NCBI GenBank assembly: GCA_028819575.1
Contig: JAPPLB010000141.1
Coordinates: 1-64,000 of the forward strand
Direction of reading: 5' to 3'
DNA from: Bryobacterales bacterium
GTDB taxonomy: Bacteria; Acidobacteriota; Terriglobia; Bryobacterales; UBA6623
DNA length: 64,000 bases
Made by a program: the position numbers and the translations under genes. The notes beneath the pieces were generated by a model. It saw only the letters and a program-made list of their open reading frames with translations. It was not told the origin of the DNA and searched no databases. Positions 43,886 through 63,591 of this stretch are shown in pieces. The first letter of the stretch is position 1. Every line of letters starts with the position of its first letter.

Positions 43886-46800
43886 CTACTCCTGTCCGGC
43901 GCGCAGTGGATCGGCTTTGCGCGGCTTCATCTGCTGTCGATAACGTTCTGCAACAACCTGCATCGAGTGTAGCAATGCGGGCCAATCATCCAAGTTGGTG
44001 GCGAAGATGCGTTCGATTGATCTTTGCGTCCACTCCGGTATGAGCAAGTTCAGACGCACGGGTTCGATGTGCAACTCGTCGGCGAGCGTAGCCCAATACA
44101 GATTTGTCGATTCCCAACTCTCAGCCATAATGCGGCTGGAAAATTTCATCATGGCCGGGAAAAGCGGTAAATGTAACAGGTCCGAACGATACGTATGAGA
44201 GAGTGCCGGGTGAGGGGTGCCGAAGATGCCGGCGATTCTCTCGTAGGCAAACCGCTCGCGATCGCTCTCCCTGAGCGCTGCGATCTTCCGCCAGATGGGA
44301 CCTCCGACATTCAGTGCGTCATTGCCGTAGTTCTCACCGAAGACAGTTGCGAGGCGGTATCGTTCGGCGGGCGTCAGACCGTCGATCCCTTCTCTGACCT
44401 TCCCATCGGCCGCAAGCCGGCGCAACAGATGGAGCCGGTGCGGTCCCAATCGCTTCCGCAAGATGGGATCGATCGTGGCGGCCAATTCCTCATCGACAGC
44501 CGAAGCGGCCACGAGCAAATTCGCGAGCCGTAGATGAAGCGCAACGAAATGTTGTTCCTCCCGTGTCACTCCCCACCAGCGAGGAACGACTGCTCCGATC
44601 ATGATCTGCGGCTCGAGGTCCTGCCAGATCAGCGCCTGCCGCTCGGTCGGAACGAGGAAATTCTGCTCTGCATCAGCCAAAGCGAAAGCGAGCCCATTCA
44701 GAGAGCCCACCATCCGGCCGCCTGCGCTGTTCGGCCAGCCTGTTCCACTCAGACGCGGCTGCGACCAACTCTTTGTTTGCTGTGACCCGAAGAAGTCGTG
44801 ACTGCGCACAAAGAGCGGATTTGCTCGAATCAGCTCGGCTCCCGGGGGTGAGTAATAGATGTAGTTCAGGCCCACGAGCGAATCCCGCAGGATAGAGGCG
44901 AAGTTCCCGCGGATGTTCAACAGACTTTCCGGCTGCCCGCGAGCCTTATCGACGGCTCGGCTCAGATTCATCGAACGCTGACGCTGAATGTGTTTCTCGA
45001 TCCAAGTCCCTTGCGCGAATGTGTTCGACTCTTCCGATGACAGGCTCGAACGCGGCAGCCGCACCTCTGAGATACGAGACGCCAGCCGATTCGCCATCGC
45101 GACATTGAAGCTCTCACCGCGCGACACCCGTTCCAGATGATCCGCGAGGTCGAAGATGTCTTTGACCGAGACCAGCCGCTGCGAGGTGAAGCGGCTGTTG
45201 AGCGTCCTGACCATCTCTTCATGAATGCTGCGTTCATTCGGATTCGGATTTCCGGCCAGCAACTCGATCAGCCTTTCCTGGGGGGATTCGTCCTCCGACG
45301 AACCGGTGGCCGCCAACAAGACTTTGACGCCCGCCCGGCCGGCCTCGAAGATGGCTTGCTCGCTGCCGACATCCCGCAGCACGTCCATCAGGGCTCGAAA
45401 CGAACGCTCGGCGTCGGTGGAAGGGATCTGCCCCTGTCGGACGAAAATCCGCCACAGACTGAACAAGGCTTGATGCGTGCCGATCGCATCCGCCCGCCGT
45501 GTGAGGTTGCGGCCTTTTTTGAATTTTGGCAGTGAGTCGAAGTACGCCAAGATCGTCTCATCCGACAGAGTCGGCGCTTCGTTGAACATGCTGAACTGAT
45601 CACCGAAATCGGGATAAGCCAACAGCAACTTCTCCACCGCTGCTGGAGACATGGGCTGATCCCGGGCGCGATCCATGTTTGTGAGAGAGATGAACATCTG
45701 CAGCGGCTCGTTCTCGACCATCTTGCGGCACATGCCGAACATGGCCTCGACGACGTCGTCCGGCTGCGTCCAATGAGGAGCCGCTTTCGCGAGACGCCCG
45801 TCGTATTCGCCGTGGGGGTGAACCGTGAACAGATTCTTCCACGGACCTATTCCGCCCGGGAGATGAATCTGACCATTCGGCTTCACATCAAGGCGTGTAA
45901 TGAGCAGCATCAGGTCCGAGTTGGCCCTGAAAATCGGCCGCGCCGGACCGGGGCTCGTCACCTTGCCCCGGACGGCCATGTAAAACCGTTCAAGCCGCGT
46001 CGGGTCACTAAAATACTCCGCCACACGGCCATCCACCCGCCACATCGAATCGTAGTAGGAGACCATCCAGCCGTCATCCAGCTCGACCAGCCGCTGCAAG
46101 AACTCCGCCCCTTGGTCGGGAGAAACACCAACAAGCTTGTGCCAGACGTCACGAGCTTTCGGACCCAACGGAACCACAGCCTTGCCTTCTTTCAACTCGA
46201 ACATGCCACCGAAAAAGTCGAGCACGTTGGCGAAGTCGAGCATGCGCTCGCTGCCTATCTTCTCCCGCAACGCCAAAGCGGTGGGCCGATGTATCTTGCC
46301 AAGAGCGAGATACAGCCGCGCCATGATGGGATTCGCCAGCAGGTTATCGACGAAATCGCCCTCAGCCTTGCGTCTCACAATGCCCATCCAGTAGTCCTTG
46401 CCGAAAAGCACGGGCAGGTGGGTCGACTTGTACGGCATCTCGAAGGCCCTCTCCTGACGGAAGGCTTGCTCCAAGTCGGCTAATGGGAATCCCGAATCGA
46501 TCGAAAGAAACGCCCGCGACGGATTGACGGTTTCCAGCACCGCTTCCGGGCCGCACTCGTTCCGCAGCCGGAAGCCCAGGATCTTGAGGATCTGCGCTGT
46601 CTCTCTCGACTCACAGGTGGGAATGCGGATCGTCTCGTCGGCTCCTGCGAGTTGCTCCAACTCCCGCGCCTGAGACAGGTATTGCTGAATGAGCTTGAGG
46701 TACTCCGTCGGAACCATCGAGTCCAGACCCGCGGTGGCCCGATACCCGCTTGTCACAATGTTGCGCGCAAGCGCAGGGAACAGTTGCTCGGGGCTCTGGT

Positions 46801-47290
46801 CAGAGGAGAGCGCCGCCATCCGTCGAAACGAGAAGAGAGGCCCCGGAATGCTAGCCCATGCATTGGCGCCCTCGTTGGCCGGAGCGGGCTCGACAATCTG
46901 TTCGGCAAGACGCAACTCCCGCCCGCCGGCGTCACGGTACATTTGTAAAAGCCGGCCCACTTCTTCGTCGTGACCGTCCGCCAGAGCGATGACGACCAGT
47001 CGGCGCATCAGGCTCCGGCGACCGTCCGCGTCAGAAGCAGGCGTGTTGTTCAGAACTTTCTCGTATGCCTGCAAACGGTCTGCGTCCCCATAGCGGTCAA
47101 GGAACTCGGCGTATTCAAGCAAGTCCTCGTGGCTTGACTGGGGCGCTGCCGCTGCGTCGGCCAAGACCTGCCGAGCCTGGAGGGGTTCGCCCGATTGCTC
47201 CAGTTCGGCCGCATGACGCGCAGCTTCACTCTCCGCCCAAAGAGGCAGTGCGCATACCACAAAAAGGGTCACCATCAGAGTGCGACTCAT
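43886..47290 (-). CDS. Large secreted protein of unknown function
   Basis: About 1134 residues; not recognised. A signal peptide (TLMVTLFVVCALPLWA) is followed by helix-rich repeats reminiscent of TPR/Sel1 (ARHAAELEQSGEPLQARQVLADAA, LLEYAEFLDRYGDADRLQAYEKVLN), then a long region without clear motifs. It lies directly upstream of a VWFA protein in the same operon, so the two may form a surface complex. Start is taken at MSRTLMV, with GGAG six bases upstream; MM at 47293 or 47314 are alternatives. No transmembrane anchor is seen beyond the signal peptide. It may be lineage-specific. Confidence 0.65.
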   Translation of the reverse strand: MSRTLMVTLFVVCALPLWAESEAARHAAELEQSGEPLQARQVLADAAAAPQSSHEDLLEYAEFLDRYGDADRLQAYEKVLNNTPASDADGRRSLMRRLVVIALADGHDEEVGRLLQMYRDAGGRELRLAEQIVEPAPANEGANAWASIPGPLFSFRRMAALSSDQSPEQLFPALARNIVTSGYRATAGLDSMVPTEYLKLIQQYLSQARELEQLAGADETIRIPTCESRETAQILKILGFRLRNECGPEAVLETVNPSRAFLSIDSGFPLADLEQAFRQERAFEMPYKSTHLPVLFGKDYWMGIVRRKAEGDFVDNLLANPIMARLYLALGKIHRPTALALREKIGSERMLDFANVLDFFGGMFELKEGKAVVPLGPKARDVWHKLVGVSPDQGAEFLQRLVELDDGWMVSYYDSMWRVDGRVAEYFSDPTRLERFYMAVRGKVTSPGPARPIFRANSDLMLLITRLDVKPNGQIHLPGGIGPWKNLFTVHPHGEYDGRLAKAAPHWTQPDDVVEAMFGMCRKMVENEPLQMFISLTNMDRARDQPMSPAAVEKLLLAYPDFGDQFSMFNEAPTLSDETILAYFDSLPKFKKGRNLTRRADAIGTHQALFSLWRIFVRQGQIPSTDAERSFRALMDVLRDVGSEQAIFEAGRAGVKVLLAATGSSEDESPQERLIELLAGNPNPNERSIHEEMVRTLNSRFTSQRLVSVKDIFDLADHLERVSRGESFNVAMANRLASRISEVRLPRSSLSSEESNTFAQGTWIEKHIQRQRSMNLSRAVDKARGQPESLLNIRGNFASILRDSLVGLNYIYYSPPGAELIRANPLFVRSHDFFGSQQTKSWSQPRLSGTGWPNSAGGRMVGSLNGLAFALADAEQNFLVPTERQALIWQDLEPQIMIGAVVPRWWGVTREEQHFVALHLRLANLLVAASAVDEELAATIDPILRKRLGPHRLHLLRRLAADGKVREGIDGLTPAERYRLATVFGENYGNDALNVGGPIWRKIAALRESDRERFAYERIAGIFGTPHPALSHTYRSDLLHLPLFPAMMKFSSRIMAESWESTNLYWATLADELHIEPVRLNLLIPEWTQRSIERIFATNLDDWPALLHSMQVVAERYRQQMKPRKADPLRAGQE

Positions 47291-47493
47291 CATGTTCTCC
47301 CGTTGAAAGATCATCCGAAGCCACCGGATGTACTTGGCCCCTTCCTCAACTCCAATCGGGCCGATTGTAAGTTGTTACCTCGGCTACTGACAAGCAATTG
47401 AAGCGTTTTTTCCCTTTCTCCAACCATATAAAAAAACGGACATCCTTGAAACATACTCCTGGGAGGGATCCCAGTTGCTGGAAAGAGCCTCCT

Positions 47494-49329
47494 CTATGTC
47501 CCTGCCGCCCCGTTGCGGCCGGCGAAGAAGCGATGAATACGCTCGGCCTGCACTTGTCCGACAACCTTCTGAAGGTCATCGAGCGAGCTGGTTTCGATCC
47601 TGTTCAGACTTCCAAGGGTGCGCAGAAGCCTGCGAGCCGTTTTCTCTCCGACACCGGGGATCTCAAGCAGCACGCTTTTGAGTCTTCGTGAACCTCGACG
47701 CTTGCGATGGAAAGCGACAGCAAAGCGGTGGGCCTCGTCGCGAACCTTCTGCATCAGGTGGAGCACGGGAGAGAAGCGGTCCAAGTAGACCGGCTCGTCC
47801 TCTTGGCCGGCAACGTAGATGATTTCTTCACGCTTGGCGATGGCGGCGACGGACTGGTTGATAATGCCCAGCGCCTCGAGGGCCTCGACGGTAGCGTGCA
47901 GTTGCCCTACCCCGCCGTCGATCAAAATCAAGCCCGGAAACGGCTTCTGTTCATCCTGAAGACGCCTGTACCTGCGCGTCACGGCCTCCCTCATCGATGA
48001 GAAATCGTCGATGCCGTCAACGGTCTTGATGATGAACTTGCGGTAGTCGCCTTTCTTCATGCGGCCGTTTTCCCAAACGACCATCGAGGCGACCGTATCG
48101 CTTCCCTGGATATGCGAAATATCGAAGCATTCGATGCGTTCCGGGGGAGCGGAAAGATTCAGCGCGTCGACCAGTGCGTCCATGATGGCTTTTGACGAAG
48201 GTTTCATCACCCGGAAGCGTTGCTCGAATCCGTGACGAGCGTTGGTCTCGACCAGATCAAGCATGGCCCGTTTCGAACCGCGCTGCGGCGTCGCAATGAC
48301 AACTTTGCGTTTCCGCCTCTCGCTCAGGAGCTCTTCAATGACATCGCGGTCGTCAAAGTCGACCGGAACATGAATCAGTGAAGGAACATACTGCGCATCC
48401 AAGTAGATCTGCATCAGCAGGCTCGAGAGGAACTCTCGTTTCTCGAACTGATCAACGTTTTCCCAATAGAACTCGCGGCGGTCGACGACGCGTCCGTTCC
48501 GAACGTGAAAGAGATTTACGGCCACCAAAGGAGGTTCGGCATGGACCCCGAAAATATCGATGTCCCGGCCTTCCACGGCAGCCACACGCTGCCGCTCCTT
48601 GAGTTCATCGACCGTCGCAATCAGGTCCCGCAGTGCTGCGGCTTGCTCGAACTCCATCTCCTCGGCGGCCGCCTGCATTCTATGGCGCAGATCGCGGATC
48701 AGATCCGTATGGCGGCCTTCCAGGAAAGCGCGGACGTCGGCTACGGCCCGGCCGTAGACGGCGTCGGTCGTCAGTCCTGCGACGCAAGGTCCCCAACAGC
48801 GCTGAATGTGGTATTCGAGACACGGTCGAGGGTGGTTGCGCGTCAGGTCTACGCGGCAGGAAGGAATGCGGAAATAGCGGTGAATGAACCGCACGATGCG
48901 ATGGGCGAGATTACCGGGAAAATAGGGGCCGTAGTAAGTCGAACCGTCCTTGCGAAGGCGACGCGTCACATAGACGCGCGGGAAACGCTCCCGAGTCAGC
49001 TTGATGTAGGGATAGGTCTTGTCATCCCGCAGCAGGACGTTGTACCGCGGTTGTCGTTGCTTGATGAGGTTGTTTTCGAGAGCGAGCGCCTCTTTTTCGT
49101 TGGCTACGGCGATGTAGTCGATGTCCCGGGCTTCAGAGAGCAATGTGCCCGTCTTGGCATCGGCGAGTTTGTCCTCAAGAAAGTAGCTGCGAACACGATC
49201 CCTCAGACTCTTCGCTTTTCCGACGTAGATCACCCGCCCGCGTCCGTCCTTGTACAGATAGACGCCAGGAAAAGCGGGGAGGGCCGCGGCCTTCTCTTTT
49301 AGCGCATCGAGATGGGGAAAGACGCTCAA
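47494..49329 (-). CDS. uvrC: UvrABC system protein C
   Basis: 611 residues. The N-terminal GIY-YIG-type nuclease (FPGVYLYKDGRGRVIYVGKAKSLRDRVRSYF), a UVR motif (DLRHRMQAAAEEMEFEQAAALRDLIATVDELK), the RNase H-like endonuclease domain (CFDISHIQGSDTVASMVVWENGRM, LILIDGGVGQL) and the terminal HhH pair (LLEIPGVGEKTARRLLRTLGSLNRI) are all present. It makes the dual incisions of nucleotide-excision repair. The track start is a TTG; a GGAGG lies 12 bases upstream, so TTG is accepted with some caution. Confidence 0.94.
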   Translation of the reverse strand: MSVFPHLDALKEKAAALPAFPGVYLYKDGRGRVIYVGKAKSLRDRVRSYFLEDKLADAKTGTLLSEARDIDYIAVANEKEALALENNLIKQRQPRYNVLLRDDKTYPYIKLTRERFPRVYVTRRLRKDGSTYYGPYFPGNLAHRIVRFIHRYFRIPSCRVDLTRNHPRPCLEYHIQRCWGPCVAGLTTDAVYGRAVADVRAFLEGRHTDLIRDLRHRMQAAAEEMEFEQAAALRDLIATVDELKERQRVAAVEGRDIDIFGVHAEPPLVAVNLFHVRNGRVVDRREFYWENVDQFEKREFLSSLLMQIYLDAQYVPSLIHVPVDFDDRDVIEELLSERRKRKVVIATPQRGSKRAMLDLVETNARHGFEQRFRVMKPSSKAIMDALVDALNLSAPPERIECFDISHIQGSDTVASMVVWENGRMKKGDYRKFIIKTVDGIDDFSSMREAVTRRYRRLQDEQKPFPGLILIDGGVGQLHATVEALEALGIINQSVAAIAKREEIIYVAGQEDEPVYLDRFSPVLHLMQKVRDEAHRFAVAFHRKRRGSRRLKSVLLEIPGVGEKTARRLLRTLGSLNRIETSSLDDLQKVVGQVQAERIHRFFAGRNGAAGT

Positions 49330-49520
49330 GCGATGCGGGAACCTCCAACGATATTATCAATCGACCTGAAAAAACCCGCCGCCGGAACCTGCGACCTACG
49401 TCAGATCGTCACTCTGTCCGTGACCAGGGCGGATTACCAGCAAGAGCGTTAGCAGGCTAGAGCCGCGATGCCCGTTCAGCGCTGTCTCAGGAATCCTTGC
49501 AGATGGGGGTTCGACCCGAC

Positions 49521-60727: not shown

Positions 60728-62194
60728 ATGGTGGCGCAACCGGACGCCTCAGCTCCAGCTCGTCGGGTGATCGTGGTGGCGCCGATGCCGCCGGAGAAGA
60801 GTGCCTATGCACTGGCGCGCTATAGCCGGTCGCCGGATTCGATCACGCAGAGTTTAGAGTGGGTCCGGGGACACGATTCAGCGAAGTTTCTCGACAGCTT
60901 CTATTTCCAGTACGGCCACGCCTCGATCGCCGACCTCGGCCATACGATCTTCTGCTTCGAGGGCATCTCGGAGCTGGCGGCGATCGAAATCGAAGACGAG
61001 CAGCTCTGGGACGGACAGGCGAAATCGAGCCGCTACCAGGATTTCTCCAAGGGCAACATCGTCACGCCTCCCGAACTGCTCGACACCGGAGGAGAGGCCG
61101 TTTACCGCGCGGCGGCGGAGAAACTGCTCGACACCTACCTCGATATCCACCGGCGTCTGGTGGAGCACCTGACCGAAAAGCATCCCCGTCCTGAAAAGAT
61201 GAAGGCGGGCGCATACAAGCGGACGATCGCAGCCCGCGCCTTCGATGTTTCGCGCTATCTGCTTTGGCTGGGGATCTCGACCAACATCGGACAGGTCACC
61301 AGCATCCGTACCCTCGAAAAGCAGATGCAGCGCTTGGGGGCTTCAGACTACAGGGAGGTACGGGACCTCGCCGCTGAGATGCACGAGGCCTGTGCGACAC
61401 CACCGGGATGCCCGTGGTATCCGGAGCAGGATCAAGAGCCGTTGGCGCCGACGTTGGCGAAATACGCCGAGCCGGATCTGCGCTCGAAAGCCTCACGCGA
61501 GAAGGTCGCCGCCTGGGCACAACAGAACCTCAATCTTGCAGGCGATGCCGAACTGCCAGACGTAGATCTCATCCGCCCGACAGACCCGCTCGATGAGACG
61601 GCGGCGACGCTGCTCTATGCCGTGACGCCGCATCCGTTCCGGGTCATCCTCGACGAGGTCAGCGGCTGGAGCCGCGCAAGGCGGCGGGAGGTGCTCGACG
61701 TGGCTCTGGAAGACCGCCACCGGCGCGACGAGCTGCTCCGCGAGTTCTGCAGCGGCTACAGCTACGTGTTCGATATCGTGTGCGACATCGGCGCTTATCG
61801 AGACTTACATCGGCATCGGCGCTGCCAGCAAATCCGCCAGAAGTTCACGGGGCGGCTCGGGCATGACCGGCCGGCGCTCGTGGATGAGGCGGGTGTCGGG
61901 CATCTGTATGACCAGGCGTTGGCGGATGCGGCGGAGGCCCGCAGGAAGCTGGCGGAGCAGTCGGACACGGCGACGCACTACCTGCTGCCGTTCGCAGCGC
62001 GCATGCGATCACTCTACAAGATGGATTTCGCCGAGGCAGAGTACATCGCACGGGTCCGCTCGGGCGTGAAGGGTCATATCTCCTACCGTACCGTGGCCTG
62101 GAAGATGCGCGAGCGCATCATGGAACGAGAGCCGGAACTTGGCGCACTGGTGGACGCCACACCACCGGAAGTGGAAGACGCATTGACGCGGTAG
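60728..62194 (+). CDS. Double-domain ThyX-like (flavin-dependent thymidylate synthase family) protein
   Basis: 488 residues, about twice the usual ThyX length, with two ThyX-like halves. The first (about residues 40-230) has GHASIADLGHTIFCFEGIS and the tail of the ThyX motif (QAKSSRY, residue 98-104), but the RHR part is lost (EDEQLWDG). The second (about residues 295-480) has the RHR part (YRDLHRHRRCQQIRQ, residue 357-371) but lacks the following N-E-x-S-x-R-Y. The canonical motif RHRxxSxNExSxRY is thus divided between halves. Whether the two complete one site or the protein is a flavin-binding relative with another job is not clear. It is likely translated from a leaderless mRNA. Confidence 0.75.
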   Translation: MVAQPDASAPARRVIVVAPMPPEKSAYALARYSRSPDSITQSLEWVRGHDSAKFLDSFYFQYGHASIADLGHTIFCFEGISELAAIEIEDEQLWDGQAKSSRYQDFSKGNIVTPPELLDTGGEAVYRAAAEKLLDTYLDIHRRLVEHLTEKHPRPEKMKAGAYKRTIAARAFDVSRYLLWLGISTNIGQVTSIRTLEKQMQRLGASDYREVRDLAAEMHEACATPPGCPWYPEQDQEPLAPTLAKYAEPDLRSKASREKVAAWAQQNLNLAGDAELPDVDLIRPTDPLDETAATLLYAVTPHPFRVILDEVSGWSRARRREVLDVALEDRHRRDELLREFCSGYSYVFDIVCDIGAYRDLHRHRRCQQIRQKFTGRLGHDRPALVDEAGVGHLYDQALADAAEARRKLAEQSDTATHYLLPFAARMRSLYKMDFAEAEYIARVRSGVKGHISYRTVAWKMRERIMEREPELGALVDATPPEVEDALTR

Positions 62195-62913: not shown

Positions 62914-63591
62914 TCAGAAGGCTTTCCTGGTCAGCCGGTGGACGTCAAAGGAGGCCGTATCAGCAATGGCCATCACGGCCATCACGCCCGCTTGGATCGG
63001 ATCGCTCACCACGAGGTCCGACGCGTCGGGAACGCTTCCGGCCATATTCAAACAGATGACGATCAGACCCTTGTCTCGCACCTCACGAACCGCGTCTTCG
63101 ATTTCTCCGCCCATCAACGCCCCGGCGAGAACCAGCGCCCGCGCACGCGGCAGGCGCGCCACGGCCTTGACCGCTTCCGCGACCTGCGCTTCTCCGACCA
63201 GAGGAATCGTGTCGACCGAGATCCGTTCTCCGCGAAGATTGTGACGATCCGCCTCGGCGACCGCGCCGACCGCGACTTGTCCGACCTGAGCCCCGCCGCC
63301 GATGATGATCAAGCGCTTGCCGAAGACACGCTTGAGAGTGTGCTGCTCGGCTACGCGAGCCACTTCGGGCAGTTCCTTCAACTGCTTGATGATCGGGTCA
63401 AGATCGTCGACACCGCCAATTTCAAAGAAGACGGTCTCGATCGGCTTGCGGCTGTCGAGGATCGCCACCCAGGTGATGTTGCCACCGGCGCGCGCGATGA
63501 TGCCGGTGAGCTGATGCAATACACCCAGCTCGTTCCTGACCTCGGCGACCAAGCCTCTCGTCGTGTTCTCTTCGTGGGCTTCCTGGTCCAT
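62914..63591 (-). CDS. ACT-domain protein with a DUF5612-like C-terminal domain
   Basis: 225 residues. An N-terminal ACT domain (GLVAEVRNELGVLHQLTGIIARAGGNITWVAIL, about residues 12-80) is followed by a domain with IIGGGAQVGQVAVGAVAEADRHNLRGERIS, VDTIPLVGEAQVAEAVKAVARLP and GALMGGEIEDAV..VICLNMAGSVPDASDLVVSDP. This architecture is best known from methanogenic archaea (DUF5612), where it is thought to sense an amino acid or metabolite. Small-molecule binding is likely, enzymatic activity unknown. TATACT followed by GGAGG lies about 50 bases before the start. Confidence 0.7.
   Translation of the reverse strand: MDQEAHEENTTRGLVAEVRNELGVLHQLTGIIARAGGNITWVAILDSRKPIETVFFEIGGVDDLDPIIKQLKELPEVARVAEQHTLKRVFGKRLIIIGGGAQVGQVAVGAVAEADRHNLRGERISVDTIPLVGEAQVAEAVKAVARLPRARALVLAGALMGGEIEDAVREVRDKGLIVICLNMAGSVPDASDLVVSDPIQAGVMAVMAIADTASFDVHRLTRKAF

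Follow-up and report, generated by a model that had tools for sequence, protein, structure and literature searches.

A double ThyX protein of Bryobacterales with its active-site residues divided between two fused Thy1 domains, a probable thymidylate synthase with composite sites

In the canonical ThyX of Mycobacterium tuberculosis, FAD is held by the RHR residues 95–97 of subunit A together with Ser71 and Arg190 of subunit B, while Arg95 and Arg199 of A hold dUMP together with Arg87, Ser105 and Arg107 of C, and Tyr108 of C serves as a lid (PMC6514825). Similarly, in the ThyX of PBCV-1, Gln75 and Arg182 are contributed by one monomer, and Ser88 and Gln89 by another (PMC3498832). An earlier note on the DNA studied here, made from the letters only, had stated that ThyX sites are built from several subunits of a homotetramer, and this agrees with both reports. 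Since the RHR and SxRY parts of one canonical site come from different subunits, a division of the motif between two fused domains is just what specialisation of subunits would predict. As for the reaction, ThyA yields dihydrofolate, so that dihydrofolate reductase (DHFR) is needed, whereas ThyX releases tetrahydrofolate, so that it is not; the ThyX of Chlamydia trachomatis has served as the positive control for complementing a thyA deletion of Escherichia coli (PMC9931769). A review of 2018 lists the Acidobacteria as ThyX organisms (6/6, with ThyA 0; PMC5954106).

The window, i.e. the whole stretch of 64,000 nucleotides of Bryobacterales DNA that was analysed, carries an intact open reading frame of 488 codons, with ATG at 60728 and the stop codon at 62192–62194 (Table 1). 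The Pfam Thy1 model (PF02511) matches the encoded protein twice, with an E-value of 1.3e-23 and a score of 84.2 bits for the whole protein, against a gathering cut-off of 24.8 bits. In the scan of the genome, both stretches exceed this cut-off individually (60779–61393 with 50.7 bits, 61760–62134 with 32.2 bits), and no match to the ThyA model (PF00303) is found in the protein. On the other hand, the NCBIfam equivalog model of ThyX (TIGR02170) gives only 21.1 bits against its cut-off of 87.9, which counts against thymidylate synthesis, although such a low score fits a diverged form. The contiguous ThyX motif RHRxxSxxxxSxRY is not found within either domain. Overall, the double ThyX would behave like a ThyX, yet the strict motif and equivalog tests exclude the label of canonical ThyX. 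Its neighbours in the window (a MoxR ATPase, a TPR/TonB-C protein and an ACT-DUF5612 protein) show no evident thymidylate connection; the last, with ACT and DUF5612 domains, is encoded at 62917–63591 on the minus strand.

Table 1. Coordinates of the double ThyX gene, its halves and its putative site residues in the window (Tm, T. maritima TM0449 numbering; Mtb, M. tuberculosis numbering; roles are predicted)
Feature	Position	Strand	Basis
Double ThyX (Thy1-Thy1) gene, whole	60728..62194	+	488 aa plus stop; Pfam Thy1 twice
Half 1, Thy1 domain, residues 18-222; dUMP-side and second-FAD-contact roles	60779..61393	+	PF02511, 50.7 bits; role table
H64-A-S66, half 1, GHxS motif (Tm H53/T55, Mtb Ser71; 'subunit B' FAD contact)	60917..60925	+	alignment; role from PMC6514825
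D90-E91-Q92, half 1, at the canonical RHR place (RHR lost)	60995..61003	+	alignment
S100-S-R102-Y103, half 1 (Tm S88, R90, Y91; 'subunit C' dUMP side)	61025..61036	+	alignment
R176, half 1 (Tm R147)	61253..61255	+	R in 40/40 half-1s
R194, half 1 (Tm R165, Mtb Arg190; 'subunit B' FAD contact)	61307..61309	+	alignment; PMC6514825
Half 2, Thy1 domain, ~residues 279-470 (Pfam match 345-469); FAD-side role	61562..62137	+	Pfam, 32.2 bits; PDB matches of half-2 model
R362-H363-R364, half 2, RHR of the ThyX motif ('subunit A' FAD site)	61811..61819	+	40/40 half-2s
R444, half 2 (Tm R174, Mtb Arg199; 'subunit A' dUMP contact)	62057..62059	+	40/40 half-2s

The motif is divided between the two domains. 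Half 1 carries Q97-A-K-S100-S-R102-Y103 (QAKSSRY) with D90-E91-Q92 in the RHR position, while half 2 keeps R362-H363-R364 and has no SxRY. When both halves are counted, the full set of site residues (R78, H79, R80, R174; T/S55, R165; S88, R90, Y91, R147) is present. The earlier note had placed the QxxSxRY end in the first half only and the RHR start in the second only, and had concluded that neither half alone makes a complete site; sequence and alignment bear out both statements. It had further proposed a shared composite site, and this proposal gains strong support from a role table, in which we have compared the halves of 40 diverse Acidobacteriota doubles of the phylum sample described below with 30 Acidobacteriota single ThyX proteins and T. 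maritima TM0449 (the reference sequence being identical to PDB 1kq4 in an alignment check). In all 40 of these alignable doubles, the division holds residue by residue, with the residues of the A role in half 2, and those of the C role and the Ser/Thr of the B role in half 1. In TM0449 numbering, R78, H79, R80 and R174 are found in every half 2, and S88, R90 and R147 in every half 1, with Y91 in 39. At position 55, all half-1s have S or T versus R or K in all half-2s. Conversely, the counterpart positions in the other half have been lost or are scattered: S at position 88 is found in only 3 of the 40 half-2s, the six commonest half-2 residues at position 147 do not include R, and half-1s have H at position 79 in 13 doubles and R at position 78 in 5. 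The replacement of RHR in half 1 is nearly fixed within subfamilies, with EDExLWDGQ in that of the window protein and HxHPFYNSEQ in another. The division is a property of the whole family and not an oddity of a single gene.

Certain positions are less favourable. R165 is less clear cut (23/40 half-1s and 18/40 half-2s), which counts against the composite-site reading, and the half-1 residue at the position of R174 is uncertain, as the alignment is gapped there. At the position of Gln-75, half 2 has Q in 30 doubles and D in 10, including the subfamily of the window protein, and half 2 has H in place of the canonical Gln-180; both observations count against thymidylate synthesis.

Beyond the Acidobacteriota, the division is seen in most of the plasmid and phage doubles that we have aligned. 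Actually, the plasmid doubles of Bacteroidota and Actinomycetota and the doubles of phages show the same division, with the Microcystis phage double being more diverged. In Tunturiibacter phage Tunturi_5 (309 kb), a phage with an acidobacterial host, the region 44986–49467 encodes a double ThyX that is 39% identical to the window protein and, adjoining it, a dCMP deaminase; since this deaminase makes dUMP, the arrangement counts for thymidylate synthesis. A search of viral metagenome contigs for relatives of the double ThyX found none. As separate observations, half 2 reads RHN in place of RHR in the doubles of plasmids from Bacillus licheniformis and Paenibacillus, whose function has possibly changed, and one Acidobacteriota genome (G126:C1:4377200-4379800) has a single ThyX whose motif is apparently split by an intein (KHRI / ACLTGDAVV ... 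VVHN / SEFNEISGRY) in a 692-codon frame.

The nearest public relatives of the window protein are from Bryobacterales (Acidobacteriota, Terriglobia), the closest being encoded by the MAG APA_bin_29 with 97% identity, and relatives are encoded on 375 stretches of the species collection. An artefact of chance or assembly is rejected on this account, and also as full-length relatives are present in 36 of 41 related genomes. Among 63 aligned sequences with 58–97% identity to the window protein, S100, R102, Y103, R176, R194, R362, H363, R364 and R444 are invariant, and the invariance of the motif residues S100, R102, Y103, R362, H363 and R364 indicates that they are not there by chance. In addition, both halves are under purifying selection, with dN/dS of 0.02–0.34 where computable. 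A maximum-likelihood tree built from 25 doubles places the half-1s in one group (97/89) and the half-2s in another (98/89). Since each kind of half is one group, the doubles are likely to have arisen by one duplication and fusion, and the simplest history suggested by the sequences would be this single event, after which losses always went the same way.

For the whole protein, an AlphaFold2 fold model from 63 sequences has reached a pLDDT of 86.9 and a pTM of 0.89, and that of half 2 alone 89.6 and 0.87. The models have the ThyX fold: the best 50 listed PDB matches of the whole model and of the half-2 model alike are all ThyX-family chains. The superposition is good in the core only, as half 2 superposes at ~4 Å over 140–151 columns at best and at 12–14 Å overall, and in the models the regions outside the ThyX core differ or sit differently. 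At the sequence level, a single-sequence phmmer search of the PDB with the window protein gave no ThyX match, and a profile search gave weak ThyX matches only, so that the structural link rests on Pfam, the fold models and the motif alignment.

Based on the above analyses, we can propose a predicted arrangement, in which the quaternary structure, the number of sites, the cofactors and the activity would be as follows. Half 2 would play the role of 'subunit A', supplying the FAD-holding RHR and the dUMP contact of the Arg-174 type. Half 1 would play that of 'subunit C', with SxRY and the Arg-147 type on the dUMP side, and also that of 'subunit B', giving the second FAD contact with GHxS and the Arg-165 type. 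Two chains are predicted to pair as a dimer of doubles, i.e., a pseudo-tetramer (1-2 / 1'-2'). Under 222 symmetry, a site A built from A, B and C implies a site D built from D, C and B. With the half-2s in places A and D and the half-1s in places B and C, the sites of A and D would be complete, and those of B and C would be dead. The retained residues agree with this assignment. There would thus be two complete composite sites per four domains, compared with four in canonical ThyX, each site consisting of one half 2 and both half-1s. As in ThyX, dUMP, FAD, NADPH and methylene-tetrahydrofolate would be used, and tetrahydrofolate released. We may further suppose that the two decayed sites have been repurposed, e.g., to bind a regulatory nucleotide or a metal, which would make the enzyme an asymmetric, regulated ThyX; the nearly fixed stretch of half 1 and the invariant Arg/Lys at position 55 of half 2 make this conceivable, though we regard it as rather unlikely.

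The genome of the window, a draft of 5.37 Mb that is 98.7% complete, has no ThyA (PF00303), no second Thy1, no DHFR (folA) and no TK1-type thymidine kinase (tdk). A dUTPase is present, and so is one deoxynucleoside kinase of the dNK family, with which some salvage is possible; the latter counts against thymidylate synthesis by the double. In a sample of 149 Acidobacteriota genomes with completeness of at least 90%, Thy1 is found in 113 and full ThyA in 31, with no overlap (p 4e-27, Fisher, ignoring relatedness). This mutual exclusion holds for full ThyA only, as weak PF00303 matches also occur in 7 Thy1 genomes. From the match tables, we have ourselves classed 77 of the 113 Thy1 genomes as clear doubles, 3 as probable doubles and 32 as singles, with 1 case being unclear. 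DHFR is found at convincing scores in all 31 ThyA genomes, in 8 of the 32 singles, and in only 1 of the 77 doubles (ThyA versus double genomes: p 3e-26, Fisher, ignoring relatedness); three doubles have a weak DHFR match below 27 bits. That is, the doubles follow the pattern of ThyX, with ThyA replaced and DHFR dispensable, and doubles without DHFR are a signature of the ThyX reaction. The pattern is nevertheless spread over many families, and there is a contrast even inside one of them (f22), where G116, with a single ThyX, has no DHFR, and its relatives carry ThyA together with DHFR.

Some further cases have been observed in this sample. The remaining five genomes (G019, G032, G074, G115 and G148) have only a divergent PF00303 protein, which may be the sole thymidylate synthase where both Thy1 and full ThyA are missing. 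In the genomes without Thy1, such proteins are encoded in frames of ~280–460 aa with ...DPPCLQ... or ...TPCFV..., and the f29/g56 genomes with a divergent PF00303 protein also have no DHFR. In family f27, a double ThyX still occurs together with DHFR in G071, and ThyA together with DHFR in its relative G093, possibly a recent replacement.

These results bear on the other ways of reading the double. The earlier note had also considered a repurposed flavoprotein. In such a protein, non-catalytic or with a new task, fold and flavin binding would be retained and dTMP synthesis gone. This would account for the absence of a contiguous motif from either half, the score under the ThyX equivalog cut-off, and D for Gln-75 in the subfamily of the window protein. 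It is nevertheless disfavoured by the presence pattern, as full ThyA and Thy1 are mutually exclusive in the 149 genomes and the doubles go without DHFR; moreover, exactly the residues of one whole site have been retained, split by subunit role, and no further known dTMP synthase is found in the genome. A separate thyA or thyX, which the note had named, along with failure of the gene to complement, as what would speak against thymidylate synthesis, was looked for in this genome and neither was found, leaving that reading unrefuted. We regard the flavoprotein as improbable. Even less probable is a relative that modifies C5 of another nucleotide, by methylating UMP like PolB or by hydroxymethylation, with thymidine salvaged from outside. 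PolB is indeed a ThyX homologue with a different specificity (PMC5003785), PDB 4p5b is among the fold matches, and the dNK-family kinase could be invoked for the salvage; but the double is the only thymidylate synthase candidate in most of the sampled genomes without ThyA and single ThyX, all of which would have to be thymidine auxotrophs, and many have no tdk; moreover, half 1 shows no variation at the dUMP-side residues S88, R90 and R147. Finally, that one half alone catalyses and the other is structural, the division being decay without complementation, is very improbable given that 40 doubles have the RHR set missing from half 1 and the S88/R90/R147 set from half 2, that both halves are under purifying selection, and that solved structures combine both parts in one site.

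Taken together, the double ThyX is very probably the functional ThyX-type thymidylate synthase of its cell, with composite sites and two fused, specialised domains that go back to an ancient duplication. If true, this would be a clear example from nature of an essential enzyme whose subunit roles have specialised after a fusion, so that an obligate homo-oligomeric active site has become complementary half-sites that are kept across a phylum and reach plasmids and phages. It would give a thymidylate synthase to many Acidobacteriota whose sole candidate scores far under the ThyX equivalog cut-off. The division would also be a built-in test of the part that each subunit plays in ThyX, and questions on half-of-the-sites behaviour in ThyX could be directly tested, as two of the four sites have apparently been lost in evolution.

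Among known systems, ThyA (PF00303) makes the same product, dTMP, but its fold is unrelated, and it makes dihydrofolate and needs DHFR. Canonical ThyX, also called FDTS (EC 2.1.1.148; TM0449, 1o26 and 4gt9; M. tuberculosis, 2af6 and 3gwc), shares the Thy1 fold and motifs with the double, likewise has one complete set of site residues, and likewise replaces ThyA with DHFR dispensable. It differs in that the double has two fused domains with the motif divided between them, and would have two composite sites per four domains, while canonical ThyX is a homotetramer with four identical sites. The C. trachomatis ThyX, about 530 aa long, may be of the double type. Searches of the open-access literature have not turned up any account of a site divided between halves in this way. 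The double architecture itself is already in the databases as FAD-dependent thymidylate synthase: RefSeq and GenBank proteins of ~490–565 aa annotated as '(FAD-dependent) thymidylate synthase', such as WP_009276148.1 (Parabacteroides plasmid), gp020 of Microcystis phage Ma-LMM01 and gp50 of Tunturiibacter phage Tunturi_5, have the same architecture and, in most of those aligned, the same division, though they are only 24–39% identical to the window protein.
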